From Candidatus Koribacter versatilis Ellin345 (GTDB lineage Bacteria; Acidobacteriota; Terriglobia; Terriglobales; Acidobacteriaceae), in the NCBI RefSeq assembly GCF_000014005.1, contig NC_008009.1, forward strand, positions 3,968,001 through 4,032,000: DNA of 64,000 nt. Reading direction: 5' to 3'. Position numbers and translations under genes: made by a program. Shown piece by piece: positions 6,931-52,019 of the stretch. The notes beneath the pieces are model-generated. The model saw nothing but the letters and a program-made list of their open reading frames with translations. It was not told the DNA's origin and ran no database searches. How positions within the stretch are numbered: position 1 is the first letter of the stretch; every line of letters begins with the position of its first letter.

Positions 6931-8377
6931 TTAAAGATTTTTGCCTTGCGAACCACCAGAACACCGGCACGCCGAGCAGAATTACCAGCGCGCCGCCGGT
7001 AGAAATTGAATTCAACGGCGGACCGATCAACGTCGTGGGAATCATGGCGTACTTCAGGTTGTCGACGAAGGTGTAGCAGAGCAGCATCGCGGCTGCAGCG
7101 ATGAAGACTGCGGGAACGACGGGATATCCCCACGTTTTGTAGGGACGATTCGCGTTCGGCTCGCGCCGCCGGAAGACGAAGACGGTGCTCGTCGCGATCA
7201 TGTAGAACAGCCACTCGGCGAAGATTGTTAACGAGAACAGCTGCTGGAATTTCCCGACCAGCGACACGAGAATGACCGCCAGCGCTCCCTGGAAGACGAT
7301 CGCATTTGCAGGCGTGAGGTAGCGCGGATGCACTTTGCCGATGGCCTCGAAGAAATAGCCGTCGCGCGCCAGGGCATACGGAATTCTTGCGCCGCTGAGC
7401 GTGGTGCCGTTGATCGTTGCCAACATCTGGATCGCCATGAGTGCCGCGAATATCGAGGCCGCGCCTGCGCCAATTGAGACCAGGACTGCATCCGATGCCG
7501 CGCGCTTCGACATCGCGATGGCCTGCGCTGGAAGCGCATATTGCACTGCGGCGTTGAGGAGCATGTACAACGCTGCCACGATGCCCACGCCGACAATCAG
7601 CGCGATCGGCACGTTGCGCTCGGGGTGGTCGATTTCCTCGGCGACCATGTTGATGTCGTTCCAGCCGTCATACGCCCAGAGCGCGGCAACGAGCGCGATC
7701 ATGAAGCCGGCAATGCCGCCAGTCGCACCCGTGAAGCTGGTTGTAAAGTTCGACCACGAGCCGTGGCCCGCGAAGAAACCAACGACAATCACGCCGAAGA
7801 TGATTGCGAGCTTCAGGACGGTGAAGACTACCTGGAACTGTCCGGCTTTCTTCACGCCGATGTAGTTCACGGCCGAGATGAAAATGATGAGCGCTACGGC
7901 CGCCAGCTGCGCGTAGGTGAATGGCACTCCCGAGACGACGTTTTTTGGCAGGAACGACAGCGCGGGATAGCCGCCAAGAATCTGCATCATGCCGGTTGCG
8001 ATGGTCGCCATGGAGCCGGGCTTCGCGATGACGAACCATGACCACGCATAGAGGAAGCTCATCAGCGGGCCGTAGGCATCGCGCACGTACACATATTCGC
8101 CGCCGGATTGCGGCTTCATCGCGCCGAGTTCTGCATACGTCAGCGCGCCTAGGAACGACAGGATGCCACCGACGATCCATGCGAGATAGACGAGCTTCGC
8201 GGTGCCGACGGCGCGCATCATCTCGGCGGGTACGAGGAAAATGCCGCTGCCGATGATGGTGCCGACGACGACGGCGGTGGCGTGGCTTACGCGCAGGTCG
8301 CGCGCCAGTTGCGGAGTGTTACTCGGCGCTGATTTCGGCGTCGGGCTGATGATTGCCTCCAAGAAGTAGACTCGCAC
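6905..8377 (-). CDS. APC-superfamily amino acid permease
   Basis: 490 residues with about 12 hydrophobic helices. The first helix carries GTIIGSGIFLVP, the unwound-helix motif of the amino acid-polyamine-organocation family, and a GGILSFLGALTYAELGA stretch follows in helix 2. It probably imports or exchanges amino acids; the exact substrate is not readable. The GTG at 8377 overlaps the end of the symporter gene by 59 bases, so the true start may be further in: a GGAGG stands just before an ATC-ATC pair near 8355, but no standard start codon is well placed. The last 11 residues are encoded by a repeat-like sequence. Confidence 0.88.
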   Translation of the reverse strand: MRVYFLEAIISPTPKSAPSNTPQLARDLRVSHATAVVVGTIIGSGIFLVPAEMMRAVGTAKLVYLAWIVGGILSFLGALTYAELGAMKPQSGGEYVYVRDAYGPLMSFLYAWSWFVIAKPGSMATIATGMMQILGGYPALSFLPKNVVSGVPFTYAQLAAVALIIFISAVNYIGVKKAGQFQVVFTVLKLAIIFGVIVVGFFAGHGSWSNFTTSFTGATGGIAGFMIALVAALWAYDGWNDINMVAEEIDHPERNVPIALIVGVGIVAALYMLLNAAVQYALPAQAIAMSKRAASDAVLVSIGAGAASIFAALMAIQMLATINGTTLSGARIPYALARDGYFFEAIGKVHPRYLTPANAIVFQGALAVILVSLVGKFQQLFSLTIFAEWLFYMIATSTVFVFRRREPNANRPYKTWGYPVVPAVFIAAAAMLLCYTFVDNLKYAMIPTTLIGPPLNSISTGGALVILLGVPVFWWFARQKSLTTKGTKEL

Positions 8378-9836
8378 TATAACCGATGGCGAACGTCACA
8401 AACGATCCGATGGCCACATACCACGGGAACGGGACCGCGCGCGGCAGCGCAAACTGCGGCACAATCGCTTTTCCCTGCCAGATGTAGATGTTCACCAGGA
8501 AGCCGGCGGTGAGGCCGATCGCTGTGCCCAGTTGGTTCGCGCGCTTGGTCAGCACGCCAAGCAGGAACGTGCCGAGCATGGCGCCCTGCGCGACGGAAGC
8601 GATCGTCAAGCCGAGTTCGACGACCTTACCGCCGCGTCGAGAAAGAATGGCAAGGCAGAAGAGAACGAGTCCCCAGGCGATGGTACCGACGCGAGACAGT
8701 AGCATGCGCGTTTTTTCGGTGGAACTGGGATAGAGCCGCAGCCAGAAATCAATGATCGACGTCGAAGTGAGCGAATTCAGGGCCGCGCTTAGGTTCGACA
8801 TGGCAGCCGCTAAAATCGCGGCGATCAGCAGGCCGGAGACGAGGTGCGGCATCTCAGTGACAATGAACGTGGGGAAGATGCGGTCCGTCTTGGCGAAGGC
8901 GACGCCGTGGTAGAAGACCCAGAGCATCGCGCCGACGCAGAGGAACAGCGCGAACTGGAGAAGCACAGCCACGCCGCTCGCCAGCAGCGCCCAGCGTGAA
9001 TCCTTCAGGCTGCGCGCCGCTAATAGTCGCTGCACGATGAGTTGATCGGTGCCGTGACTCGCGGTCGTCAGGAACGCGCCACCGATTACGCCGGACCAGA
9101 AGGTGTAGGTCTTCCAGAAATCCCAGCTGAAGTCGAAGACCCTGAACTTCCCTGCCGCCGCGGCAGTGGCGTGAATCGCGCCCCAGCCGCCGGGGACGAG
9201 ATGGATGATGGTGAAGAAACCGACGATCGTCCCGCCGATGTAGATGAAGGTCTGGATGACGTCGGTCCAGATCACCGCCGCGAGGCCTCCCTCGAACGTA
9301 TAGATGAGCGTCAATATGCAGACAATGGAGATGGCGATCAGGTCGCGGCTGAAGTCGCTGAAATTACCGAGTTGCGGGCCGAGGGCGATACCGATCACCA
9401 ACGCGACAGCGTAAACGCGAACGCCTTCGGCAGCGGCGCGGGTGATGAGGAAGAGGCCAGCGGTGTAGGTGCGCAGCTTGCCGCCGAAGCGACGCTGGAT
9501 GAGTTGGTAGGCGGTGAACAGGTATCCCTTGAAATATTGCGGGAGCAGGATGATGCAGATGATGACTCGCCCTACGAGGTATCCGAAGGCGAGTTGCAGG
9601 AAGGTGAAGTTGGTGTCGTAAGCGAGACCCGGGACGCTGACCAGGGTCAGAGTGCTGGTTTCGGCGGCGACGATGGAGAGCGCCAGCGCCCACCAGGGAA
9701 TGGATCGGTCTGCGAGGAAATAATCTTTCAGGGTGCGCTGTGACTTGCGGAAGCGCAACCCGAACAGCGTAATACCCGCTAAATATGCCGCGATGATGAG
9801 GAAATCTGCTGCGTTGAGCCCGGCGCGCGCGTGAAT
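8319..9836 (-). CDS. sodium:solute symporter (SSS family), probable ATT start
   Basis: 505 residues if started at ATT (9834-9836). The only other in-frame start, TTG at 9758, would remove most of helix 1 (NAADFLIIAAYLAGITLFGL), and a stop lies upstream of the ATT with no ATG, GTG or TTG between. AGGAGA (9843-9848) is 6 bases before the ATT, which supports it. About 13 membrane helices; the region DYFLADRSIPWWALALSI is typical of SSS proteins, which use the sodium gradient to import sugars, vitamins or organic acids. Substrate unknown. The APC permease follows with overlap, so the two are likely co-transcribed. Confidence 0.85.
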   Translation of the reverse strand: MHARAGLNAADFLIIAAYLAGITLFGLRFRKSQRTLKDYFLADRSIPWWALALSIVAAETSTLTLVSVPGLAYDTNFTFLQLAFGYLVGRVIICIILLPQYFKGYLFTAYQLIQRRFGGKLRTYTAGLFLITRAAAEGVRVYAVALVIGIALGPQLGNFSDFSRDLIAISIVCILTLIYTFEGGLAAVIWTDVIQTFIYIGGTIVGFFTIIHLVPGGWGAIHATAAAAGKFRVFDFSWDFWKTYTFWSGVIGGAFLTTASHGTDQLIVQRLLAARSLKDSRWALLASGVAVLLQFALFLCVGAMLWVFYHGVAFAKTDRIFPTFIVTEMPHLVSGLLIAAILAAAMSNLSAALNSLTSTSIIDFWLRLYPSSTEKTRMLLSRVGTIAWGLVLFCLAILSRRGGKVVELGLTIASVAQGAMLGTFLLGVLTKRANQLGTAIGLTAGFLVNIYIWQGKAIVPQFALPRAVPFPWYVAIGSFVTFAIGYSASLLLGGNHQPDAEISAE

Positions 9837-34216: not shown

Positions 34217-34661
34217 GAGCCGGAAAGCCTAATATTTTCCTGCTGGAAAACCGTGATTATAACAGAGTAGACGCGGCCCAGCGGCGAAGGTGAGTGTGAG
34301 TACAGGAATTGAGTGAGAGTGGTGGGATGTTGGGGGACACAGCGGGAACGCGCGGGATTCATGCGGGTTAGGTGACGTTTTCACCCGCTCCGCGGCGCCA
34401 TGCTGACTGGAATTAAATGAGAGTGCCGAGCCGCATGTCCGCTGGATTCTGCTTGTAAGTTGTTGATAGTTCGCGCGGCGAACGCCGATCCAACGGACAT
34501 CGTGTCCGTTGGATTCTACCGAGGCGCTTGGCACAGCGGCGGGAACGCGGCGCGCTTGCGATTGGCGCGGTTCTGAGGGTGTTCCGATCCAACGGACATG
34601 GGAGAGGAAGACGCCAAACCCGCCGCCAGTTTCGGTGCGAATCCAACGGACATCACTTTCC
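34217..34661. other. non-coding interval holding the host-prophage junction
   Basis: About 445 bases without a convincing gene. The left part (34217-34430) contains two imperfect 17-bp direct repeats, GGAATTGAGTGAGAGTG (34305-34321) and GGAATTAAATGAGAGTG (34409-34425). The right part holds five copies of the prophage end motif. The exact junction could not be fixed; a 5'-TG at 34424 just outside the first motif copy is the best guess. Confidence 0.5.
34435..34653. repeat. five-copy prophage end motif (probable transposase binding sites)
   Basis: Core ATCCAACGGACAT occurs on the plus strand at 34488-34500, 34587-34599 and 34641-34653, and inverted at 34435-34448 (one change, AGCGG) and 34503-34515 (last base changed). 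The copies at 34487-34515 form a head-to-head palindrome with a 3-base centre. Spacing is irregular, as in the Mu ends where MuA binds several 22-bp sites. A matching set should exist at the unseen right end. Confidence 0.65.
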
Positions 34662-34925
34662 TCATTTCGGTGGCTCGGTTTGGAGCTCATTGAGTTTGTC
34701 CATGACGCTCTCGGCGGGGATATACCACCAGCCCCGCTCGCCGTAACGGAAGGAGCCCTTCAGTTCGCCGGCTTCACACATTCGGGTGACACTTTTGGCG
34801 GACCGGAAGAGGATCTTCGCAGCCCGGGGAGCCGAGATACACCCGGTGTGAACGAACTGCATTTTAAGTTGATTTGTGCCACCGCCAGAGGGCGCTTCCT
34901 GCTTCTTTTTTGTGTTGATGGTCAC
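34662..34925 (-). CDS. small helix-turn-helix protein (excisionase/MerR-like), last early gene
   Basis: 87 residues from GTG 34925, with GGAGG 8 bases upstream. The core SAPRAAKILFRSAKSVTRMCEAGELKGSFRYGERGWWYIPAESV is the winged-helix pattern of excisionase and MerR N-terminal domains. Its start overlaps the stop of the preceding gene (GTGA). It resembles its upstream neighbour and may have arisen by duplication. It could bind the nearby end motif, but this is an inference. Confidence 0.65.
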   Translation of the reverse strand: MTINTKKKQEAPSGGGTNQLKMQFVHTGCISAPRAAKILFRSAKSVTRMCEAGELKGSFRYGERGWWYIPAESVMDKLNELQTEPPK

Positions 34926-35158
34926 CTGGCCCTCCTCCTTTCGCGATCGCGCCCGCGCGCCATCCTGGCGTCACGGTAAGCGATCACAGACGAACGGCTG
35001 ATTCGGTTCCAACCGCGATCGGTGATACGCCATCCGGAGATCGATCCTGCATCCACCAGGCGCGTCACAGTCTTCGCGGAACAGCCCAAAATTTCAGCCG
35101 CCTCGGAACTCGAAATATCGACGTCCTTCAGCCTCTTTTTTTGCTGTCCTCGTACCAA
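34922..35158 (-). CDS. small helix-turn-helix protein (excisionase/MerR-like)
   Basis: 78 residues if started at TTG 35158. The core ISSSEAAEILGCSAKTVTRLVDAGSISGWRITDRGWNRISRSSV is an excisionase-like winged helix, followed by an Arg-rich tail. The frame overlaps the GemA-like gene by 31 bases and lies in its -1 frame. A run of seven A residues sits in the overlap and no ATG or GTG is available upstream of the domain, so the start, or a fusion by slippage, is open. Confidence 0.6.
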   Translation of the reverse strand: MVRGQQKKRLKDVDISSSEAAEILGCSAKTVTRLVDAGSISGWRITDRGWNRISRSSVIAYRDARMARGRDRERRRAR

Positions 35159-35661
35159 ATTCCCGCCTTTTGCAACAAACGTTTCAAGCCCCAGCGGACG
35201 CTATTCGCGTCGGCAAGGGTGCGAATTTGTGGGTTGCTGCGCTTGCCAAGTGGTGACGATGGCGAGCACAGCCAGGCATCGAAGCGATCACGCGTCCAAT
35301 CGAGGCGCAGGTAGAAGCGCTCGATGGTGGCGAGGTCTTCGGCGGATGCGAGGCGCGGCTCTTTCTTAAATTCCTGGCCATCGCGGCGGCCGTCGATCCC
35401 GGCGCGGCGCGCATCCTCGCGGCGGCGCGTTCGCTTCGATGGAGCCTTCACGTTCAGGAGCCGCTGCAGGGCGTCAATGAGGCCCTTCGCCTCGTCCAGA
35501 GTGAGGTCTTTAAAGGATGAGATCAGCCGGCCGGTCTGCTGCGATGCCCACTGCAGGCGCTCCTCGCGCGTGCCGCGTGTGGCGTCGAGCGTGTGCCTCT
35601 CGTACTGCGAGTAGAGCACCTGCAGGCGCTGAACCTGACCTTTTGTGATGGCGACAGTCAC
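35128..35661 (-). CDS. GemA-like (Mu gp16, DUF1018-type) phage protein
   Basis: 177 residues. The start ITKGQVQRLQVLYSQYERH and the following LTLDEAKGLIDALQRLLN resemble the GemA family of Mu-like phages, which modulates host gene expression. The C-terminal part (LATIERFYLRLDWTRDRFDAWL) also fits. Support is moderate, from pattern and position only. The first codons overlap the stop of the preceding gene (ATGA). Confidence 0.6.
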   Translation of the reverse strand: MTVAITKGQVQRLQVLYSQYERHTLDATRGTREERLQWASQQTGRLISSFKDLTLDEAKGLIDALQRLLNVKAPSKRTRRREDARRAGIDGRRDGQEFKKEPRLASAEDLATIERFYLRLDWTRDRFDAWLCSPSSPLGKRSNPQIRTLADANSVRWGLKRLLQKAGIWYEDSKKRG

Positions 35662-36404: not shown

Positions 36405-36812
36405 TTAGTTATCGTTCTTCCGCCGGCGTGCCCACCGCTTCATCCACCAGCGTTTGTGGGCCCAGAACACTTGACCACCGCCGCACTCAAACTCTTCGCC
36501 CTTCCATGTCACGATCTGATCCCATCGCAATGCGCTATCCACGCGGCCCCATTCGTCGAAGGTGCTTCCCGGTTTCTCAGCTCGCAGACTCGCACCGCAC
36601 CGCCAGAAGTGATGCCACGTCCTCACCTGGTACGGCCGCACATAGAAGATGACCGTATTGATGTAGCAGCAGTAGGCGATCGCGAGGTTCGGATTCGGAA
36701 CCTTCGATGTCAAAGGCTCGGTGATCTCGATCAGCCACGGCTTCGGTTGCTCGACGAGCCAGCCACTCGCGATTTGATCTTCAAGAATGTAGGGCTCGGC
36801 GATTAGCATCAT
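36405..36812 (-). CDS. hypothetical phage protein, Trp-rich
   Basis: 135 residues from an ATG-ATG pair whose first codon overlaps the stop of the DnaA-like gene (ATGA), with GGAGG about 10 bases upstream. Many Trp residues (WLVEQPKPWLI, RTWHHFWRCG, HKRWWMKRWARRRKN). I do not recognise it. The basic C-terminus may bind nucleic acid. Confidence 0.6.
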   Translation of the reverse strand: MMLIAEPYILEDQIASGWLVEQPKPWLIEITEPLTSKVPNPNLAIAYCCYINTVIFYVRPYQVRTWHHFWRCGASLRAEKPGSTFDEWGRVDSALRWDQIVTWKGEEFECGGGQVFWAHKRWWMKRWARRRKNDN

Positions 36813-37639
36813 TCGTCGCCTGCCTCCTGCATCCGCGCGAACAAGCGGCGCTCGATCGCCTCGACGCGCTCGCGCAGTTCAGCCGATTCCGCCATCGATT
36901 TCTCCAAGCGGGTGACAGATGTTTTCGCGGTACCGGTGGAGCGCACCAGGTAGAGGGCGATGTCTGGGAATGATCCGATCCCGAGCCGATGCGCGATGTA
37001 GGTGACGATCGCGCGCATTTTCGCGCCGGGCTGCGCGTTGCCAGGCTGCATTACGTCCGCTTCCGTGCATCCATAATCGAGTGCTACTTCGCGCACAACA
37101 TCAGAGAAGCGGATACGCCCTGCAGGCGCCGTCGACACGTCGCCTTCGAGCCGAGCCTTTATGGTGCGCACGGTACGCGCGAGCTGAGGGTCGGTGACAA
37201 GGCGTTCCTTGATGCGCCGCACGCCGTAGCAGAGCGTGGTGTGGTGGACGTCGCTCTTGCGCGCGATCTCGCTCAACGAATAAGGAGTAAGGTGCGACGC
37301 CAGCAGCCACATCACCTGGCGCACTAGCGCCATCCGCGAGAATTTGCGCGGCGTTGAGAAGTATTCCAGCGGGACCTCGAACTCCTTTGCCACTTCTTCG
37401 GCGATTGCCGAGAGCGTAATCACCCGCCCAGCCCGATTGATACGCGGCTTCATCTCGCGCTCTTCATACTGGCTGCCGCGGTTGTGCCGGCGCATGCGAA
37501 TGAATTCTTCGCTGATCTCGTGAAGGCGGTCGATCTGCGTCCGCATTTCGCTGAGCATCACGCGCATGGCGGCCAGGTCGGACGAGGTCAGCGCCGGTTG
37601 AGGAGGCATCTTGTGGGGTTTAAGGAGTTCGAGATTCAT
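36809..37639 (-). CDS. stand-alone protein with two DnaA domain IV-like helix-turn-helix domains
   Basis: 276 residues from ATG 37639. A coiled-coil-like N-terminus (MLSEMRTQIDRLHEISEEFIRM) precedes a first domain (about 65-155) with SLSEIARKSDVHHTTLCYGV, matching the DnaA signature with HHTTLCYG for DHTTVLHA. A second, more diverged copy (about 165-250) has VVREVALDYGCTEADVM and FPDIALYLVRSTGTAKTSVTR. No AAA+ domain is present. It may bind DnaA-box-like DNA in the phage or host to control replication or transcription. The stop overlaps the next gene. Confidence 0.75.
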   Translation of the reverse strand: MNLELLKPHKMPPQPALTSSDLAAMRVMLSEMRTQIDRLHEISEEFIRMRRHNRGSQYEEREMKPRINRAGRVITLSAIAEEVAKEFEVPLEYFSTPRKFSRMALVRQVMWLLASHLTPYSLSEIARKSDVHHTTLCYGVRRIKERLVTDPQLARTVRTIKARLEGDVSTAPAGRIRFSDVVREVALDYGCTEADVMQPGNAQPGAKMRAIVTYIAHRLGIGSFPDIALYLVRSTGTAKTSVTRLEKSMAESAELRERVEAIERRLFARMQEAGDE

Positions 37640-41829: not shown

Positions 41830-41966
41830 CGCGGCACCCCCGGAATGCGGCCTGTGGCGATCGCCGAGATGACGATGCCTACGAAATACCCGGCGACAAA
41901 CCACAGCGCCGCGGTACAGAAGGTGTTCACTCGCGAAGCGAGTCGAGAACGCCACGAAGTGGTCAT
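41826..41966 (-). CDS. 46-residue phage membrane protein
   Basis: ATG at 41964-41966 overlaps the stop of the MuB-like gene (ATGA) and the stop at 41826-41828 overlaps the next ATG. The product, MTTSWRSRLASRVNTFCTA then LWFVAGYFVGIVISAIATG, has one clear membrane helix. The perfect coupling at both ends argues for a real gene. Confidence 0.6.
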   Translation of the reverse strand: MTTSWRSRLASRVNTFCTAALWFVAGYFVGIVISAIATGRIPGVPR

Positions 41967-42961
41967 GCGGAGGCTTCTTTCTTGGCCTGGCGTTTCTCTA
42001 TCGCGCGCTTGATGTCGCGGATGGACCAGAACAGACGCCGGGCTGAGATGTAGTTGTGTTCACCGGAGCGGCGAACATCGAGGGCCTTGGATTCGGTGAT
42101 GAGCTTGCGAACGATCGGCGACGTCACCTTCTCGCCGAGTTCCTGGCGGATGATCGTGTCGGCCTCGTCGTCGGAGATTCCCGGCAGAGCCTTGCCGAAG
42201 TGCAGCCGCGAGTTCCACTGTTCGAGCCGCGCGGCATCGCGCATAAAAGTGGTTTCGAGCTGGTGCGAACCGGCGAGCAGGATCGCGCAGTGCGGCATGC
42301 GATCGAAGAGCCCGCGGATGGTTTCGAGGCACTCGTAGTTGAGGTGCTGTGCCTCGTCGAGGATGAAGATCACCTTGCGGGTGCGAAACTCGAAGCGCAG
42401 CCGCTTCAGGATGCGCTGCGCGTCGCCGGTGGTATCGACACCGCAGGCCTCGGCGATCTCGCGCATGATCTTCTGCGAGGTCTTCACCGACTGTGGGCAA
42501 TATACGTAATAGGCGCGGCGGCCGTGACCGTTCTTCGATACTTCGGCACAGTTGAGTTCCGCGGTCAGGTGTTCGAGCACGAACGTCTTCTGCGATCCCG
42601 GCGCGCCGTGGACGTAGATCATGCGGCAGTCGTCGAGCGCCTCGTAGAAGTACTGGCGCAGCAGCTGCACGTTCTCCGTCTCATAGAGCTTGTCGCCTGC
42701 CTGCGTAACGGGTTCGATTGGGTGCGCAGCAATGAATTCGGTAATGGCCTTGCGAAGAGGGGCATCGTTGGAGGCGATGTTGGCGTAGCGTCCCTTGATG
42801 AAGAAGCGGAGGGTCACCGACGAGTAGTTGATTCGCCTGGCGAAATCGGAATAAGCGAGGCCGGTGCGTGCCAGATACTCGTTCAGCTGCTCGCGTACGG
42901 CGTTCGCGGCGGGCAAAGAAGTTGCCAGCAAAAGTTCGCGATCTTTCATACTGAGTGCCAT
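41963..42961 (-). CDS. MuB-like AAA ATPase, transposition target activator
   Basis: 332 residues. N-terminal HTH-like region (YSDFARRINYSSVTLRFFIKG, about 37-57), then AAA ATPase: Walker A region GAPGSQKT at 119-126 and Walker B VIFILDEAQHL with D202-E203. MuB binds ATP and DNA, selects the target and activates the transposase. The second Gly of the Walker A loop is replaced by Gln. It lies 3 bases after the transposase gene, the normal A-B order. Confidence 0.88.
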   Translation of the reverse strand: MALSMKDRELLLATSLPAANAVREQLNEYLARTGLAYSDFARRINYSSVTLRFFIKGRYANIASNDAPLRKAITEFIAAHPIEPVTQAGDKLYETENVQLLRQYFYEALDDCRMIYVHGAPGSQKTFVLEHLTAELNCAEVSKNGHGRRAYYVYCPQSVKTSQKIMREIAEACGVDTTGDAQRILKRLRFEFRTRKVIFILDEAQHLNYECLETIRGLFDRMPHCAILLAGSHQLETTFMRDAARLEQWNSRLHFGKALPGISDDEADTIIRQELGEKVTSPIVRKLITESKALDVRRSGEHNYISARRLFWSIRDIKRAIEKRQAKKEASA

Positions 42962-42964
42962 CGA

Positions 42965-45034
42965 TCAGTCCCCCTCCATCAATCCGGCGATCTCTTCGGC
43001 TACGTCGCCTACATACTTCTGGCTCACCTTGGGTGCGGCCGCTGCTGCTGCCTTGGCCGCGCGCGCCATTGAACTGCGTTGCACTGCCGGCACCTCGCTG
43101 GCGGGTGGCAGCGCGAGCACCTTGTTCACCAACCGCTCCACGCCGGTGACGACACCGGAGGCGCGGGCGGCATCGCGCATGGCCACGTAGGCATCGCGTG
43201 TGTTGCGCTCCAGGCGGCGGCGCTGCTGCATGCTTTCCGCAATCGCGTTCGCCGCCTGGGTGGTGTTCTGGGGGAGGAACTCTTCGGGCTTGGCCCAGCA
43301 AATGAGGTTGCCGTCGAGATCGAGGACCGCCACGCGATCGAGATCGAGCGGGTCGTAGGCCACCATCACTTCGCAGTTGCTCACGTCGTGCAGTCGCTTC
43401 ACCGCGGTGAAATCCGCGCCGATGAAGCGCCGTTTGCCCACGGTGACCGAGCACTCGCGCACCATGCGCTGCTCCCGCGAACACAACATGAGGGCCAGAA
43501 CGTTGTCGGCCGGCGCGGGGCGTTGCAACGGGTTGCGCTCCTGCTCGAAGACCTGCGCCGGTGTGCGACCGTCCATACCCTGACCGCCATGCGGCGTGTT
43601 GTGGTACTCGTCAAGCCAGGCGCGGAAGAGCTTCATCACCAGCGTTGCTGGCGGCAAGAGCGATTGGTGCAGACCGTTGATGCCTTTGCCCATCTGGATC
43701 AGTCGCGCGCTCTCACGCTCCAGACGGCTGTGCTCGGCGATGGCCTTCGATGTGAACTCAGGACGGCGATCTGGATTCGAGCCGCTATAAGTTGGGAAGA
43801 GCGCGTCGAACTGTTTGTGCACGGTGCGGAAGAAGCGTTCAACGTGTTTCGACTGCGGATGCCGCACGATGCAATGGCGGATCGAGATCCCGCAGCGCGC
43901 AAGCACGCCGGCCTGCGTGTCGAGCTCCTGCTGCCACCAGTCCTGTGGGGCCTTACCGGAATCGCGCAGATACGCGGGCAGCGCGGCCTTGGCAACGGAT
44001 TTGTAGTCCTTGCCGTTGTCGCAATAGAACTCTTCGCATGCGCCATAGCTGGCGATCGCCTGGCGTAGGCAGGTTGTGATGGAGATTGAGCTGCCTTCTT
44101 CGGCGAAGCTGTAACCAACGACGTAGCGGGCGCGGAAATCGAGCAGCGCGGTAAGGCGCATGCGAATACGCTGGCCGCGCGGGATATCGTCAAAGACATC
44201 GTTCTGCGCGAAGAGATCGTGGATCATGTGATCGCTGACCCAGATTTGATTTGCGTATTCGTTGTAGCCGCGACGGACGTAGGGCGAGATCAGGTCGCGG
44301 TAGCGGCGCTCGCCATCGCGCACCAGAATGCTCATCGCCGGCGGCGCGGAATTCAGGAACGAGCGCACCGTCTCGTAAGACGGCATCTCCTCTTTCGCGA
44401 TGCCGAGGAGCTCATGGTGAGAGAGCAGCGAGCGATGCGCTTCACGCGCGCCCCACTTCAACCCGATATAGGCAGCGGCTGCTGCGGCGTCGCCGTGCCG
44501 AGCAAACCAGCGCGAGCGTCCTTTGTCTTCGCGGGTCCGGTCGGCGAGTCGTTCGCCCTTCTTGAAGCGGCTGTGCCAGCGCCAGATTGTCGCGGGGCTG
44601 GATGAATACTTCGCCGCGAGATGCTCGACCAGGCGGCTTATGGAAGTGACAGGCTCGCCATCCGCTAGGCGCACGGTAGCCCATTGCGCCTTGTGCTGTT
44701 CGAAGTTGGCGATGGCGAGGCAGGCAGCTTCGCGCCGCGCGGCCTGGGCTTCTTCTTCCTCGTCAACGCAGGCGATCTTCAGGAGGGGCTGCTCAGCGGC
44801 GGTTGCGCTGTTCTGTGGGAGGAGAGTGATCGCACCTCGCACGGCGAGCAGCCTCTCGCGAAGATCGGTGGGAAAACTCTCGATGCAGTACTCGCGAACG
44901 AAGCGGCCATTGGCGGCTTTAGTAGCGGACGCGCGGCTGATGACCTTGCCTTCGCGGGCGAGACGGCGGAGATGGCGTTCACTGAACGAGATGGCGGCGA
45001 GCACATCAGCTTCGATCAGCCAGAGGTCGCTCAT
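42965..45034 (-). CDS. Mu-type DDE transposase (MuA-like)
   Basis: 689 residues. An N-terminal HTH (VLAAISFSERHLRRLAREG) and a second DNA-binding region (SSSPATIWRWHSRF, near 145) precede the RNase H-like core with D268 (QIWVSDHM), D339 (EEFYCDNGKDY) and E399 (PQSKHVERFF). A beta-barrel region and an Ala/Lys-rich C-terminus, which in MuA contacts MuB, follow. It should cut and join the phage ends. All catalytic residues are intact. Slightly longer than MuA (663). Confidence 0.92.
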   Translation of the reverse strand: MSDLWLIEADVLAAISFSERHLRRLAREGKVISRASATKAANGRFVREYCIESFPTDLRERLLAVRGAITLLPQNSATAAEQPLLKIACVDEEEEAQAARREAACLAIANFEQHKAQWATVRLADGEPVTSISRLVEHLAAKYSSSPATIWRWHSRFKKGERLADRTREDKGRSRWFARHGDAAAAAAYIGLKWGAREAHRSLLSHHELLGIAKEEMPSYETVRSFLNSAPPAMSILVRDGERRYRDLISPYVRRGYNEYANQIWVSDHMIHDLFAQNDVFDDIPRGQRIRMRLTALLDFRARYVVGYSFAEEGSSISITTCLRQAIASYGACEEFYCDNGKDYKSVAKAALPAYLRDSGKAPQDWWQQELDTQAGVLARCGISIRHCIVRHPQSKHVERFFRTVHKQFDALFPTYSGSNPDRRPEFTSKAIAEHSRLERESARLIQMGKGINGLHQSLLPPATLVMKLFRAWLDEYHNTPHGGQGMDGRTPAQVFEQERNPLQRPAPADNVLALMLCSREQRMVRECSVTVGKRRFIGADFTAVKRLHDVSNCEVMVAYDPLDLDRVAVLDLDGNLICWAKPEEFLPQNTTQAANAIAESMQQRRRLERNTRDAYVAMRDAARASGVVTGVERLVNKVLALPPASEVPAVQRSSMARAAKAAAAAAPKVSQKYVGDVAEEIAGLMEGD

Positions 45035-45092: not shown

Positions 45093-45584
45093 TCACAGTG
45101 CCCTCCCTGACAACGCACCTTCAAGGCGGGAGACAACTGCGTCCGCGCGTTTACGAATCAGGTATTGGCGCCCGAGTTCAAGGAGGTCGTACTCAGCGAC
45201 GGTGATAACGCGGAAGCCCGCCAATTCAGCGCGGGTGCGAAGCAGGCGGTCATCGCCGGTCACGAAACAGAAAGCGCGGTCTAGTTCTGAAGGCCAGCGG
45301 AAGTCTTCGCGCGATTCGGCAGTGAACCCGTTGAGTTGGCGTTCGGTGATCTTCCGTCCAACCAGTTCCGTGAGTTCATCGGCAATCTGCGGACGGCTTT
45401 TGCCGCATTTCCGGATCGCATCCACGAGGATGCCCCGCACCAGCGAAGCGTCGTCCATACTGCCTGGCACTGGCCGTTCGGCCATGAATAGGCTTGGCTG
45501 ATGGTCTACTGAAAAAACTTTGTGTCGATTTTCCGTAGAAAGATGAGTGCTCTCCGGGAGAGACTCGCCGCGTGATGAATTCAT
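45093..45584 (-). CDS. early phage protein, probable regulator
   Basis: 163 residues from ATG 45584, which overlaps the stop of the Ner-like gene (ATGA) and has GGGAG 8 bases upstream. A helical segment VRGILVDAIRKCGKSRPQIADELTELVGRKITERQLNGF could be an HTH, and RTRAELAGFRVITVAEYDLLELG follows. I have seen this type near the repressors of transposable phages, but no function is known to me. Confidence 0.65.
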   Translation of the reverse strand: MNSSRGESLPESTHLSTENRHKVFSVDHQPSLFMAERPVPGSMDDASLVRGILVDAIRKCGKSRPQIADELTELVGRKITERQLNGFTAESREDFRWPSELDRAFCFVTGDDRLLRTRAELAGFRVITVAEYDLLELGRQYLIRKRADAVVSRLEGALSGRAL

Positions 45585-45817
45585 GCAGCGCGCTCCCGGC
45601 TGATCTTCTCGATCGCAAGCTCGATCTTCCGGCACTCGGACATCAGGGCCAGAGTTATGCGCTCCGACTTATTAATGCCCTGCCCAACCCGGCGCACGAC
45701 GGACGTGGAAACACCGAGGCCCCGAGCGACGCGCGCATAAATCCCCTTGTACAGCTTCGCCCTTACGAGGCTGGGATGAAGCGTGCTATGTTGGCGTGTC
45801 ACTCTCTGACGTTGCAT
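45581..45817 (-). CDS. Ner-like small HTH regulator, first early gene
   Basis: 78 residues if started at ATG 45817. IYARVARGLGVSTSVVRRVGQGINKSE is a compact helix-turn-helix; the rest is a charged helix. In Mu, Ner is the first early gene and turns down both the early and repressor promoters. The ATG lies inside the operator palindrome and only 8 bases after the -10 box, so the mRNA would be nearly leaderless; a GTG at 45802 is an alternative. Confidence 0.6.
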   Translation of the reverse strand: MQRQRVTRQHSTLHPSLVRAKLYKGIYARVARGLGVSTSVVRRVGQGINKSERITLALMSECRKIELAIEKISRERAA

Positions 45818-45841
45818 GACACTCGTATATACGAGTGTCAT
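45816..45841. promoter_or_regulatory. 26-bp perfect palindromic operator
   Basis: Half-site ATGACACTCGTAT (45816-45828) is followed directly by its exact reverse complement (45829-45841). It lies between the divergent repressor and Ner-like genes and covers the early promoter -10 box, as expected for the site bound by the phage repressor or Ner-like protein. A partial half-site GTGTCACTC lies nearby at about 45797-45805. Confidence 0.8.
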
Positions 45842-45854
45842 AAATGGAAGTCAA
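45826..45854 (-). promoter_or_regulatory. early promoter
   Basis: On the minus strand, TTGACT (45854-45849) and TATATA (45831-45826) are 17 bases apart, a near-ideal sigma-70 promoter reading into the Ner-like gene and transposase operon. The -10 box is the exact centre of the palindrome. Predicted start is near 45819. Confidence 0.8.
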
Positions 45855-45865
45855 GGGGATTCTTT

Positions 45866-46633
45866 GTGCCTGCACAGGAAAAGTCTCAAATGGGGCACTA
45901 TGCCGATGTCGTCTTGCGGCTTCGCGCTTATTTAAAGATGAACCAATCGCAGTTCGCCGATGCGTTGGGAGTGACCCAGGCGTCCGTATCCCGATGGGAA
46001 CAAAAGGGTGCATCCACTCGCGGCCCCTCGCGAGGGGCTTGGACGTCGATGTACTTTCTCGGTTTCGACACTCCTCTCGCAAACGAGCTCTATGAAAGGG
46101 CCGGGCTCGATCCGGAAGCCGTCAAAAGGCTTGCGCGCGATTTCCGTGATGACCTGTCCGGGCGGGAGACGACCTACGTGAGAGAGAACGGAGACGGCCC
46201 GGTGGAGGGCGTCGCGATCCCACTGTTGACGGATAAGGCGGCGGCAGGCCAGCCGCGTCTGATAAACGAGAAGGACATCCAAAAATACCTCTTGTTCCCA
46301 CGCGAGATGGTGCCGCACCCCACATCAACCAGGTGCATGCGCGTTCGTGGCGATTCGATGGCACCGATCGTTGACGACGGATACATCGTCGCAGTCGACA
46401 CCTCAGAACGAGATCCTCGAAAGCTCGTAGAGAGCATGGTTGCTGTCAGCGATCCTGAATCGGGATGCACGATCAAGTGGCTTCGCCAGGCGGGTCGGGC
46501 TCGGTTTCTTCTCGTGCCACAGCACACAAGCCCGCGCCATAATCCGATTGTGCTCGACCCTAAAGAAGAGGGCTGGCGCATTATCGGGAGGGTCCTGTTC
46601 TGGATCGGCCAACCGCCGCCGGCGAGAAAATGA
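45866..46633 (+). CDS. phage repressor, XRE HTH plus S24 LexA/CI peptidase domain
   Basis: 255 residues from GTG 45866, with AAGGGG 7 bases upstream; ATG 45890 is the alternative. The HTH (NQSQFADALGVTQASVSRWEQKG) is at about 26-48. The C-terminal peptidase has the catalytic serine S164 in RGDSMAP and lysine K204 in CTIKWL, and an Ala-Gly pair (A127-G128) that fits a self-cleavage site. It should keep the early operon silent and be inactivated by the SOS response. The early promoter is divergent and shares its operator. Confidence 0.88.
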   Translation: MPAQEKSQMGHYADVVLRLRAYLKMNQSQFADALGVTQASVSRWEQKGASTRGPSRGAWTSMYFLGFDTPLANELYERAGLDPEAVKRLARDFRDDLSGRETTYVRENGDGPVEGVAIPLLTDKAAAGQPRLINEKDIQKYLLFPREMVPHPTSTRCMRVRGDSMAPIVDDGYIVAVDTSERDPRKLVESMVAVSDPESGCTIKWLRQAGRARFLLVPQHTSPRHNPIVLDPKEEGWRIIGRVLFWIGQPPPARK

Positions 46634-48945: not shown

Positions 48946-48977
48946 AATAAACACTGCGCGTGCTGCACATTCAGCGC

Positions 48978-51900
48978 ATGCTGCGTCGCATATTCGCCCT
49001 CTCATTCCTGCTGTTCTCGGCCGTCGCACTGATGGCGCAATCGAAGATCACGCTCAACGGCAACATCCAGCAGATGACCGGCGAAGTACCGAGCAGCCGT
49101 ATCCGGGTGAAGGTCGATCTCATCCAGTGCGCGCCCAACTTGCCGCGCGTCTCGGGCGTTGCGATCATCGGCGATTCTTCGAAGTCGATCGCACCGGATG
49201 GCAGCGGAAACTTCACGACGCTGATCTGGCCGAACCCAACGATTACCTGCGACACGCTCGGCAACTCGAATTACCAGGTCTCGATCACCAAGGACCAGGC
49301 CACTCTCTGGAGCGCGGTATATCACATTGCGACCTCGCCCTCGACCCAGGACCTGAGCACGCTGACGCCGGTCGCAGTCACGGTCGTCTCCCCATATCTT
49401 GCGGGCCACATGCTGCTGCATGGCACCGCGGCGCCATCGTCGGGTGATGGCAACGACAACGACTTCTTCCTGAACACAACGGCGTCGTGTCTCTACGGCC
49501 CCAAGGCGTCGGGCGCGTGGCCGGGATCGTGCACGTCAATCATCGGGCCGCCTGGAGCCGGAAACATTGCGAGCCTTACCGGTGACGGCAGCGGTATTAA
49601 CGTAGCAGGAGCAGCGACGATCACGGGAGCGGTGAACGCCTCCGTCATCAACGGCGGATCGAGTGTTTACATGGCGTCCACCAGCGGCACTGGAAGTTTG
49701 CTCTTTCCGTTCATCGGTTTTGACTCCCTTTGCGATAACACTGGCCGCACACTTCTTTTCGGTCCTGGTCACTACCGCACCAGCGGATGCGACATGGGGA
49801 GCAGCTTCGGTTTCGCCGGCGTGGTTCCGTTTGGTGATGGCACGCCGGGAACCGGCGCGGTGTTGCACTACACCGGAGGAGGCCACGCGCTCGGTATTAA
49901 CCCGGCCTCAGTCGGTGTGACCACCAACAAGTTCTTCGTCAGAGACATCGCGATTGACGGAACCGGATCGAGTAGTGGCATCCGCGATACGTTTGCCTAC
50001 TCGTCCGGAGGAACCGCGACCGGCACAGGAAAATGCCTCGCGACAACGACAGGCGGAGGCGGCAGCGGCGGAACGGCCACGGTGGCCGTGGCGAGCGGCG
50101 TGATAAGCGGCAACCTGACGATCCTTACCTTCGGACAGAGCTATACAGGCGTGCCAAGCTCATGGAACCTTAGCCTCCCCGCGAGCGGCGCGGCTTCGAG
50201 TTGCAGTGGAACGATCACGACGACGGGCGGCGCGATCGCCGGCGCGGACGCGATTCTTGCCGGCAATACGACTGCATCGGTGAAGTCAGCGAATGGCGTG
50301 TTCCAAAATGTGCTGGTTACGAACTTCCCGAATGGCGCGGGCATACATTGCGTCGCGTGCGAAATCATGCAGCTCAATTCCATCTGGTCGAGCCATAACA
50401 AGTACGGCTACTGGTTCGACGGCGTCGGCACCAACCAGATCAACACGAACATCGACATGAACGGTGACCGTGCCAGCTCTAACCAGATCGGCATATACGC
50501 GACGCAGCTGCAGGACTTCAATATCCGCGGCGGCGATGTCGAGTACAACGCGCAGGAGGGCATTAAGCTGGCCGGCGACGCTAACACCAGCGTCCAGTCT
50601 GGAAAAATCGACGGCGTCCGTCTTGAGGGAAACCAAAGCAGCCGCACGCAAACCAGCTGGTCCCTAACCTCACTGGCGTGCGCCTCCAGTGTTCTCACCG
50701 GGCAGACCTCCACCTCTCACACGATGTCTGTCGGAGACCCGGTTGCGATCACCGGATCCACCGGCCCCAGTGACTACAATGTGAATGCGCTGGTCGCGTC
50801 GGTTCCTGATAACACCCATTTCACAATCTCAATCGGCTGCAGTACCGGGAGCGCATCGCCGGCAGGGTCGATCTCCACGGCCTGGTCTCAGCTCTATGTT
50901 GACGGCGCCAGCCTTCTGCAGGGCATCACGCTCGACGGCCTGCGCTTCTACACCACGGTTGGCCCGAACATCGCCGACGAGTGGATTGGCGCGGTCGGCG
51001 GCGTTACGGGCGGGGCCAGCGTACAACGTGGAATTCACCACTCAAGCACGAGCTATACGAGTTTCATTCGTTCAACATCGAGCGCACGGATGTGGTTCCA
51101 AGACGAAAACCCTTCCACGAACTGGAGCCGGCCATCCGCAGCGGTGAATGTTTGTTTCGAGTGGTACGACAACAGCACGCCGGCAAGGAACATCGGATGC
51201 AACCTGCTGCTCGGCGGCACCGTCGCTCCATCGGCGGCGGGTGGCGGCAGCGTGGGGACTGCTGCGCTGCCTTTTGGTAACGCTTACTTTGGGGGTGCGG
51301 CGACCAACAACTTCCACTTCAACCTTCCGAGCTTCACCGCGGCGCGCACGCTGTATGTTCCTGACGCGAATTCCACGGCCGTCGTACCCGACACTGGCGC
51401 GTCGCACAACTACCTCACCGCGGTATCGGCAACCGGCGTGATCTCGAAAGCGCAGCCGGCCTTCACCGATATAAGCGGAACGGCGGCAACGACACAGATT
51501 GCGACCGGAACCCCGGCCGCGGGCTCCTACCCGGACGGAGGAACTGGAGCGTGGACGCCGCTGCCGGTCACGCAGAGCTCGCTTATTTACCAGACCGGGC
51601 CGATCGCCGAGCAGATTGGCAACGCGTCCGACCAAACGGTGTGGACCGTGGCGATGCCGGCAATTCCGGCGGGCAAGTGCGTCCAGGCAGATGTCTACCT
51701 GTACCACTCGGTCTCATCATCGGCGTCCGTGGCCTACAAGTTCACGTATGGCAGTTCCTCGGTGAGCACGAGCTCCTCCAACTCAACGACGAACTCGCAG
51801 ATCCGGCTAATCATGAAGTTCTGCAACAACGCCGGCGTCCAAAACGCTCAGTGGGTGATCATCGAGCAGCCATTCGTCGGAGGAACCGCGATCGGCTCGA

Positions 51901-52019
51901 CGATTAACACAACGACGAGCGAGGATTTGAGCACATCGAAAAACCTCGTGTTCTCGTTCAACGCCGCCACCACAGAGAAGATCATCCACAAAGGCTCGAT
52001 CGTCAGATTAATTCAGTAG
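48978..52019 (+). CDS. beta-helix fibre-like protein with a signal peptide
   Basis: 1013 residues from ATG 48978. A clear signal peptide (RRIFALSFLLFSAVALMAQ) precedes a domain of about 130 residues, then Gly/Thr/Ser-rich segments and a right-handed beta-helix region (about 400-600: QNVLVTNFPNGAGIHCVACE, NQIGIYATQLQDFNIRGGDV). The C-terminal part has tail-fibre-like text (DISGTAATTQIATGTPAAGS) and an Ig-like end. The cysteines and the signal peptide point to secretion, which is odd for a virion fibre. It may be a tail spike or a secreted surface protein. Confidence 0.7.
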   Translation: MLRRIFALSFLLFSAVALMAQSKITLNGNIQQMTGEVPSSRIRVKVDLIQCAPNLPRVSGVAIIGDSSKSIAPDGSGNFTTLIWPNPTITCDTLGNSNYQVSITKDQATLWSAVYHIATSPSTQDLSTLTPVAVTVVSPYLAGHMLLHGTAAPSSGDGNDNDFFLNTTASCLYGPKASGAWPGSCTSIIGPPGAGNIASLTGDGSGINVAGAATITGAVNASVINGGSSVYMASTSGTGSLLFPFIGFDSLCDNTGRTLLFGPGHYRTSGCDMGSSFGFAGVVPFGDGTPGTGAVLHYTGGGHALGINPASVGVTTNKFFVRDIAIDGTGSSSGIRDTFAYSSGGTATGTGKCLATTTGGGGSGGTATVAVASGVISGNLTILTFGQSYTGVPSSWNLSLPASGAASSCSGTITTTGGAIAGADAILAGNTTASVKSANGVFQNVLVTNFPNGAGIHCVACEIMQLNSIWSSHNKYGYWFDGVGTNQINTNIDMNGDRASSNQIGIYATQLQDFNIRGGDVEYNAQEGIKLAGDANTSVQSGKIDGVRLEGNQSSRTQTSWSLTSLACASSVLTGQTSTSHTMSVGDPVAITGSTGPSDYNVNALVASVPDNTHFTISIGCSTGSASPAGSISTAWSQLYVDGASLLQGITLDGLRFYTTVGPNIADEWIGAVGGVTGGASVQRGIHHSSTSYTSFIRSTSSARMWFQDENPSTNWSRPSAAVNVCFEWYDNSTPARNIGCNLLLGGTVAPSAAGGGSVGTAALPFGNAYFGGAATNNFHFNLPSFTAARTLYVPDANSTAVVPDTGASHNYLTAVSATGVISKAQPAFTDISGTAATTQIATGTPAAGSYPDGGTGAWTPLPVTQSSLIYQTGPIAEQIGNASDQTVWTVAMPAIPAGKCVQADVYLYHSVSSSASVAYKFTYGSSSVSTSSSNSTTNSQIRLIMKFCNNAGVQNAQWVIIEQPFVGGTAIGSTINTTTSEDLSTSKNLVFSFNAATTEKIIHKGSIVRLIQ

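Follow-up and report, generated by a model that had tools for sequence, protein, structure and literature searches.

P0001, a protein of a Mu-like transposable prophage, is predicted to consist of two copies of the DnaA domain IV fold, the second diverged, in a chain for which no ATPase was reported, and single-copy genes of the same kind recur beside the transposition gene MuB in other Mu-like phages. On present evidence we put at roughly 0.4 the probability that P0001 is an early protein that reads DnaA boxes in the host, its copy 2 making a second contact, which places this reading ahead of the alternatives considered below.

Results

Two DnaA domain IV copies in one phage protein

The window, that is the whole stretch of 64,000 nucleotides that was analysed, contains the P0001 gene with its ATG at 37639 and its stop at 36809, precisely in the coordinates, strand and frame given by the sequence-only reading that we followed up. 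At each end the gene shares a few bases with its neighbour (Table 1). Its GC content at the three codon positions (0.64/0.45/0.76) is coding-like, and it is preceded by AGAAGG upstream of the ATG. An N-terminal coiled coil was considered for the protein and rejected, the heptad test not being significant (p 0.27). Neither an AAA ATPase family nor domain I was reported for P0001 by Pfam or NCBIfam, the NCBIfam DnaA model matching only with its C-terminal part and far below the cut-off, and no DnaA-type family of PHROGs came up for P0001 or for eight other phage proteins scanned.

Table 1. Positions in the window of P0001, its parts and the neighbouring prophage features
Feature	Position	Strand	Remarks
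P0001	36809..37639	-	276 aa: N-terminal predicted helix, then DnaA domain IV copy 1, then copy 2
Long single predicted helix	37475..37585	-	P0001 residues 19-55
DnaA domain IV copy 1	37136..37420	-	residues 74-168; Pfam E 2.6e-12; Z 15.3 to 1j1v
HHTT, start of copy 1 recognition helix	37235..37246	-	residues 132-135
DnaA domain IV copy 2, diverged	36824..37117	-	residues 175-272; Pfam E 2.8e-4; Z 16.1 with alignment
ATCCAACGGACA, five copies (4 exact, 1 with a mismatch)	34436..34652	both orientations	distal end of early operon
Two small helix-turn-helix genes after gemA	34662..35158	-	HTH_17 E 1.4e-8 for 34922-35158
GemA-like early gene	35128..35661	-	Pfam GemA E 0.0022, below cut-off; present in all six relatives (L048-L053)
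MuB-type AAA ATPase, DNA transposition protein	41963..42961	-	phrog_296 E 1e-30; AAA_22
MuA-type transposase	42965..45034	-	phrog_310 E 2.8e-83; Pfam rve and Mu-transpos_C
S24-peptidase repressor	45572..46633	+	divergent from early operon

The Pfam family Bac_DnaA_C (PF08299) matches P0001 twice, with an E of 6.9e-18 for the whole protein. Taken alone, the N-terminal half scores above the Pfam cut-off (E 2.6e-12), and the C-terminal half reaches 21.3 bits (E 2.8e-4), which is significant yet under the cut-off of 31.5. The C-terminal half alone also matches full-length DnaA, its best non-self match (E 5.5e-7, in one genome) being a 458-residue frame of DnaA length, and it has matches at E <= 0.01 in 31 of 396 genomes of the phylum, its own included.

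In a model of the whole protein made by AlphaFold2 without an alignment (mean pLDDT 63.5), copy 1 folds as domain IV, superposing on E. coli DnaA (PDB ID: 1j1v) with a Z of 15.3 and 1.4 Å over 93 residues, and the best Foldseek match of this model is to 3pvp (E 1.2e-3). The helices of copy 2 follow in the same order in the model; no DnaA row among the matches listed covered this copy, and it was therefore modelled separately with an alignment. The result (pLDDT 80.6; Z 16.1 and 1.1 Å over 93 residues to 1j1v; Z 16.6 to 3pvp) comes from an 11-row alignment of domain IV that leans towards this fold, so that the sequence evidence carries the assignment of copy 2. By these matches and models both halves are predicted to be DnaA domain IV folds. 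A phage protein with two copies of domain IV and no ATPase is what the sequence-only reading had proposed, and Pfam, the fold models and the Mu-like early operon bear it out; the diverged second copy that it saw is upheld by the Pfam match, the DnaA match and the aligned model alike, and structure prediction against DnaA domain IV, the check it named, gave a different fold for neither half.

In a tree of domain IV sequences copy 1 groups with a Bradyrhizobium phage sequence (L231; 95/84) and copy 2 with the domain IV of a transposase (L067; 90/94), in both cases on long branches. AU tests reject neither a recent duplication of copy 1 into copy 2 (p 0.24) nor a capture of copy 1 from the host dnaA (p 0.135), and the tree does not settle where either copy came from.

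A Mu-like prophage with a variable early region

The genes from 34.6 kb to the end of the window make up, judged by their content, a Mu-like transposable prophage, which besides the genes in Table 1 encodes an endolysin, a terminase, a portal protein and head genes. P0001 belongs to its leftward early operon, on the same strand as MuA and MuB, and lies late in the operon, 4.3 kb from MuB. The closest named relatives of the prophage MuB are on Acidobacteriaceae contigs, and in six related prophages from the same host family (L048 to L053) MuA, MuB and the GemA-like gene are all retained. None of the six has a domain IV gene, so a gene of the P0001 type appears dispensable in these prophages. 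The stretch before gemA varies among them; for instance, in L051 this slot (8249-8860) encodes a protein whose C-terminal domain is of the DnaJ type, with an HPD motif (Pfam DnaJ E 1.5e-5, under the cut-off), and which would be a further part of host type taken up by these phages. The prophage also has a frame of 1019 residues (48960-52019) that lies between the repressor gene and one for a DNA methyltransferase and has no match in Pfam or PHROGs.

Only one further exact copy of ATCCAACGGACA occurs in the 5.65 Mb genome, and none was found at the right end of the prophage, so that the repeated sites stand at one end only. At the same place L050, L052 and L053 have different, lineage-specific repeat clusters, and since these three have no domain IV gene, ATCCAACGGACA was rejected as a target of P0001; the copies are probably phage-end (transposase) sites. 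The region of the divergent repressor and early promoters contains a perfect 13-nt palindrome, ATGACACTCGTAT/ATACGAGTGTCAT (45816-45841), a likely operator that falls within the long repressor frame as annotated but upstream of its helix-turn-helix.

Single domain IV genes recur beside MuB

From a MuB alignment we collected 148 MuB-anchored loci (68 from genomes and 80 viral), in which stop-to-stop frames were searched with a domain IV profile at E < 0.001 and duplicates then removed. A single-copy domain IV frame is present at 23 of the 148, which reduce to 19 non-redundant loci with named hosts that include Hephaestia, Sphingomonadales, Rubritepida, Novosphingobium and Ahrensia. All 19 frames are on the MuB strand and start at most 2.0 kb downstream of the MuB end, 15 of them within about 0.4 kb, and upstream of MuB there is a full MuA at 17, a partial MuA at one and a contig starting in MuB at the last. 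With such a frame near MuB at 19 non-redundant loci, free domain IV can be called an accessory that recurs among Mu-like phages, mostly just after MuB. The remaining 125 loci have no domain IV frame, and 104 of these have MuA.

Single domain IV genes are also found in other temperate phages: in ctOK67 the gene adjoins one for a putative replisome organizer, in Bradyrhizobium ppBeUSDA76-2 it lies near a DUF1376 gene, and further examples are Bradyrhizobium ppBjS10J-1 and a Microcystis phage. Two frames were seen in other settings. L067 (832-1782) encodes a Y1 transposase with a fused C-terminal domain IV (Pfam Y1_Tnp E 4e-13; Bac_DnaA_C E 9.4e-10), and on a Rhizobium lusitanum plasmid (L252, 6998-7747) an N-terminal domain IV with 42% identity to copy 1 over the matched part is followed by a long, helical-looking tail, in a frame for which no gene is listed and within 7 kb of which neither MuA nor MuB was found.

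A second tandem domain IV protein was not found in genome, phage, plasmid or contig searches; apart from those made with profiles, these searches reach no further than close relatives. Among 200 genomes of the family the only full-length match was P0001 itself, and the 396 genomes of the phylum gave no other two-copy protein. P0001 matched in 15 of 50,697 phage records and 3 of 72,556 plasmid records, no match covering 80% of it, and pattern and single-protein scans of viral and genome contigs returned no relative. The titles and abstracts shown by our literature searches described neither a tandem domain IV protein nor domain IV genes beside MuB.

Box-reading residues are largely kept in copy 1 and in the phage set

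D433 and H434 of DnaA (E. coli numbering is used throughout) have roles in box reading. The portion of PMC9638019 available describes T435 as a base-contacting residue, R399 and S400 as minor-groove contacts, and R442 and K443 as contacts to the backbone. Copy 1 has R398, K399, R407, Q408, H433, H434, T435, T436, R442 and R443, and so largely keeps the box-reading residues; the DnaA-box-type recognition helix that the sequence-only reading had recognised is thus supported for this copy. Its further suggestion, that two copies in one chain imply recognition of paired sites, fared less well, for in copy 2 position 434 is T and position 435 is G, and with the equivalents of H434 and T435 lost, recognition of two like boxes is unsupported.

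The same residues are mostly kept in the 19 non-redundant domains of the Mu-like phages, where H434 and R407 are each found in 18, T or S at 436 in 17, T or S at 435 in 16, and R or K at 399 in 15. Position 433 is D in 15 of them, N in two and H in two. Copy 1 has H433, as do all 48 Acidobacteriota DnaA rows, the sole D row of that set being the transposase L067, and D433 is found in all seven alphaproteobacterial host DnaA proteins. That phage and host match at this position fails as a general rule, however, since the phage protein of L099 has H433 and the DnaA of its host D433. Copy 1 also differs from the host DnaA, with RK against NN at 398/399 and R against an acidic residue, in the prophage's own host DnaA, at 442.

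In Acidobacteriota DnaA generally the R399 position is mostly N and the D433 position H. Genome-wide, the E. coli-type box gives 117 matches in the host against 123 for the reversed control, a comparison to be read with the reservation that the host's own box may differ, and in the 8 kb around dnaA there is no exact E. coli-type box, only two TTATNCACA-like matches with one mismatch each. Given H433, the mostly N399 and the lack of an excess of E. coli-type boxes in the host genome, the DnaA box of Acidobacteriota may differ from the E. coli type.

Alternative roles for P0001

Foremost among the alternatives, and one that we regard as possible though rather unlikely, is that P0001 would be a phage transcription regulator like GafY or GafA, which binds prophage operators and recruits RNA polymerase to middle or late promoters. 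Its position late in the early operon would suit such a role, and GafY is by analogy a strong precedent. First named HdaB as a replication factor, GafY is, in the part of PMC9632790 at hand, thought not to act on oriC and is reported to activate a phage-like gene cluster. This reassignment of a tested stand-alone domain IV protein from replication control to transcription cautions against assuming a replication role for P0001. GafY is further described as binding sigma-70 RpoD and GTA promoters (PMC11150451, in excerpt), and activation of GTA promoters as needing the DnaA-like domain of GafA (PMC9638019; also PMC6363796, both in excerpt). However, a Pfam scan of ten prophage proteins reported no DUF6456, the family of the GafY partner GafZ. 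In our GafY reference (L242, from Ahrensia), MucR, the domain IV protein, DUF6456 and SufE stand in a row, the neighbourhood that the available text of PMC9638019 gives as the GafA/GafY setting, and this protein has R in place of H434. The phage set keeps the reading residues that the GafY reference has lost, and this is our reason for preferring host-site reading, a preference that comes from comparison with one GafY protein.

Replacement of Mor by domain IV would predict that a phage has one or the other, and we compared the two across the 46 records of at least 30 kb among the 80 viral loci, of which 10 have domain IV and 16 have Mor. Over all 46 there is no association (Mor in 4 of 10 with domain IV and 12 of 36 without; p 0.72), and four phages carry both. 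Only in a subset chosen post hoc, the 24 records not of Acidobacteriota type, is Mor rarer with domain IV (4 of 10) than without it (12 of 14; Fisher p 0.032), and replacement of Mor by domain IV was rejected as unsupported over the full set. In phage Mu, mor sits after gemA. The two small helix-turn-helix genes after gemA in our prophage, both of which have tblastn matches in L051 and the second also in L050, fit that place better than P0001 does.

An accessory role in transposition appears improbable. P0001 would here steer the target choice of MuA/MuB, or hand the transposition fork to the host replisome by way of DnaA-type sites. The closeness to MuB of most frames in the phage set (about 0.4 kb or less in 15 of 19) speaks for it, as do the single domain IV genes near replication-type genes in ctOK67 (replisome organizer) and ppBeUSDA76-2 (DUF1376). 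However, 125 of 148 MuB loci do without a domain IV frame at E < 0.001, so domain IV is not part of the core transposition reaction, and in the window P0001 stands 4.3 kb off.

The sequence-only reading had also raised recruitment of the replication machinery to the phage, and named a search for DnaA boxes there as a check. DnaA binds its boxes through domain IV, and P0001 could thus in principle bring host DnaA-type replication to boxes in the phage genome. The search did not bear this out: the phage is Mu-like, with MuA and MuB of its own, no ATPase or helicase-loading domain was reported for P0001, and the 41.8 kb used as the prophage stretch have no exact TTWTNCACA against 0.98 expected. 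Across 20 non-redundant phage sequences there was likewise no excess, with one box against about four under an order-2 expectation, a shortfall that is not significant, since counts this low came from 15.5% of 200 permuted motifs. Avoidance of boxes by domain IV phages was considered as well and rejected, the raw count of 1 against 7.1 expected, from a set with the window including its host part, having become 1 against about 4 on removal of duplicates and with the order-2 expectation. We regard recruitment to phage boxes as very improbable. Equally hard to credit is that P0001 is a relic, decayed or neutral, left by the capture of a dnaA, as the failure of our genome, phage, plasmid and contig searches to find an orthologue and the loss of key residues in copy 2 might suggest, for the frame is intact, with coding-like codon bias, a ribosome site and overlapping neighbours, and copy 1 keeps its box-reading residues.

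Discussion

The reading that we favour, in which P0001 reads host DnaA sites, can be put as follows. Copy 1 would read DNA of the DnaA-box type, and the diverged copy 2 would make a second, different contact, either with DNA or structural. Without the ATPase and helicase-loading parts, P0001 would occupy DnaA sites but could not start replication, and by acting in this way, during phage replication by transposition, on the host origin and on promoters under DnaA control, it would hold back host initiation or DnaA-dependent regulation. The DNA binding, the host target and the inhibitory outcome are all steps that we infer, and competition for host DnaA boxes, as the sequence-only reading had it, is possible.

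In favour of host-site reading we count the two predicted domain IV folds, the lack of an ATPase, the place of P0001 on the MuA/MuB strand of a Mu-like prophage, the single domain IV beside MuB elsewhere, the kept reading residues, H433 as in Acidobacteriota DnaA, R434 in the GafY reference, and no excess of boxes in the domain IV phages. Against it stand the E. coli-type box, not enriched in the host, the differences between copy 1 and the host DnaA, the H433/D433 mismatch of L099, the non-significance of the box shortfall, and the six relatives that lack the gene.

Domain IV proteins beside transposition genes suggest that Mu-like phages may use DnaA landing sites to influence their hosts. 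More tentatively still, the free domain IV proteins adjacent to MuB in Mu-like phages of several bacterial groups might still read DnaA boxes, letting a phage that does not replicate from oriC occupy host DnaA sites during replicative transposition, and P0001 would be a bivalent form whose second domain, of different specificity, could hold a DnaA site and a second DNA site together. Free domain IV proteins have so far been read in two conflicting ways, as replication regulators and as phage-type transcription activators, and the 19 non-redundant loci with the order MuA-MuB-domain IV and kept reading residues are a defined protein set with which to settle that conflict. The tandem protein in turn raises the question of whether the two domains of a single chain recognise DNA sites that differ from each other.

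Compared with known systems, P0001 shares the fold of DnaA domain IV (PF08299; 1j1v, 3pvp) in both copies, as predicted, and most box-reading residues in copy 1, and differs from DnaA in missing domains I to III, in having two copies per chain and in a copy 2 without H434 and T435. The single domain IV phage proteins, namely UOF79249.1 of ctOK67 (annotated dnaA), hypothetical proteins of Bradyrhizobium and Microcystis phages, and those of the Mu-like L218, L214, L202 and L098, are like it in their early or replication region, in the lack of an ATPase and in an HTT or HST recognition helix, but have one copy, and the Mu-like ones stand right after MuB rather than 4.3 kb off. The transposase L067 is a further case of domain IV reused outside replication initiation, as a Y1_Tnp fusion and not as a phage early gene. 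GafY (HdaB) and the N-terminal part of GafA likewise belong to a phage-like system and have a DnaA domain IV with no ATPase, and GafY is, like P0001, a small protein; GafY, however, has one copy, a DUF6456 partner (GafZ) and, in L242, R for H434, whereas P0001 has two copies, belongs to a transposable phage and has no DUF6456 among the ten proteins scanned. A similar example from E. coli is YfdR, a cryptic prophage protein that the accessible part of PMC4776307 links to inhibition of host initiation and describes, unlike P0001, as a binder of the DnaA protein and not as a domain IV DNA-binding protein. If host-site reading is true, the phage would act on host replication through DNA and not through protein contacts.
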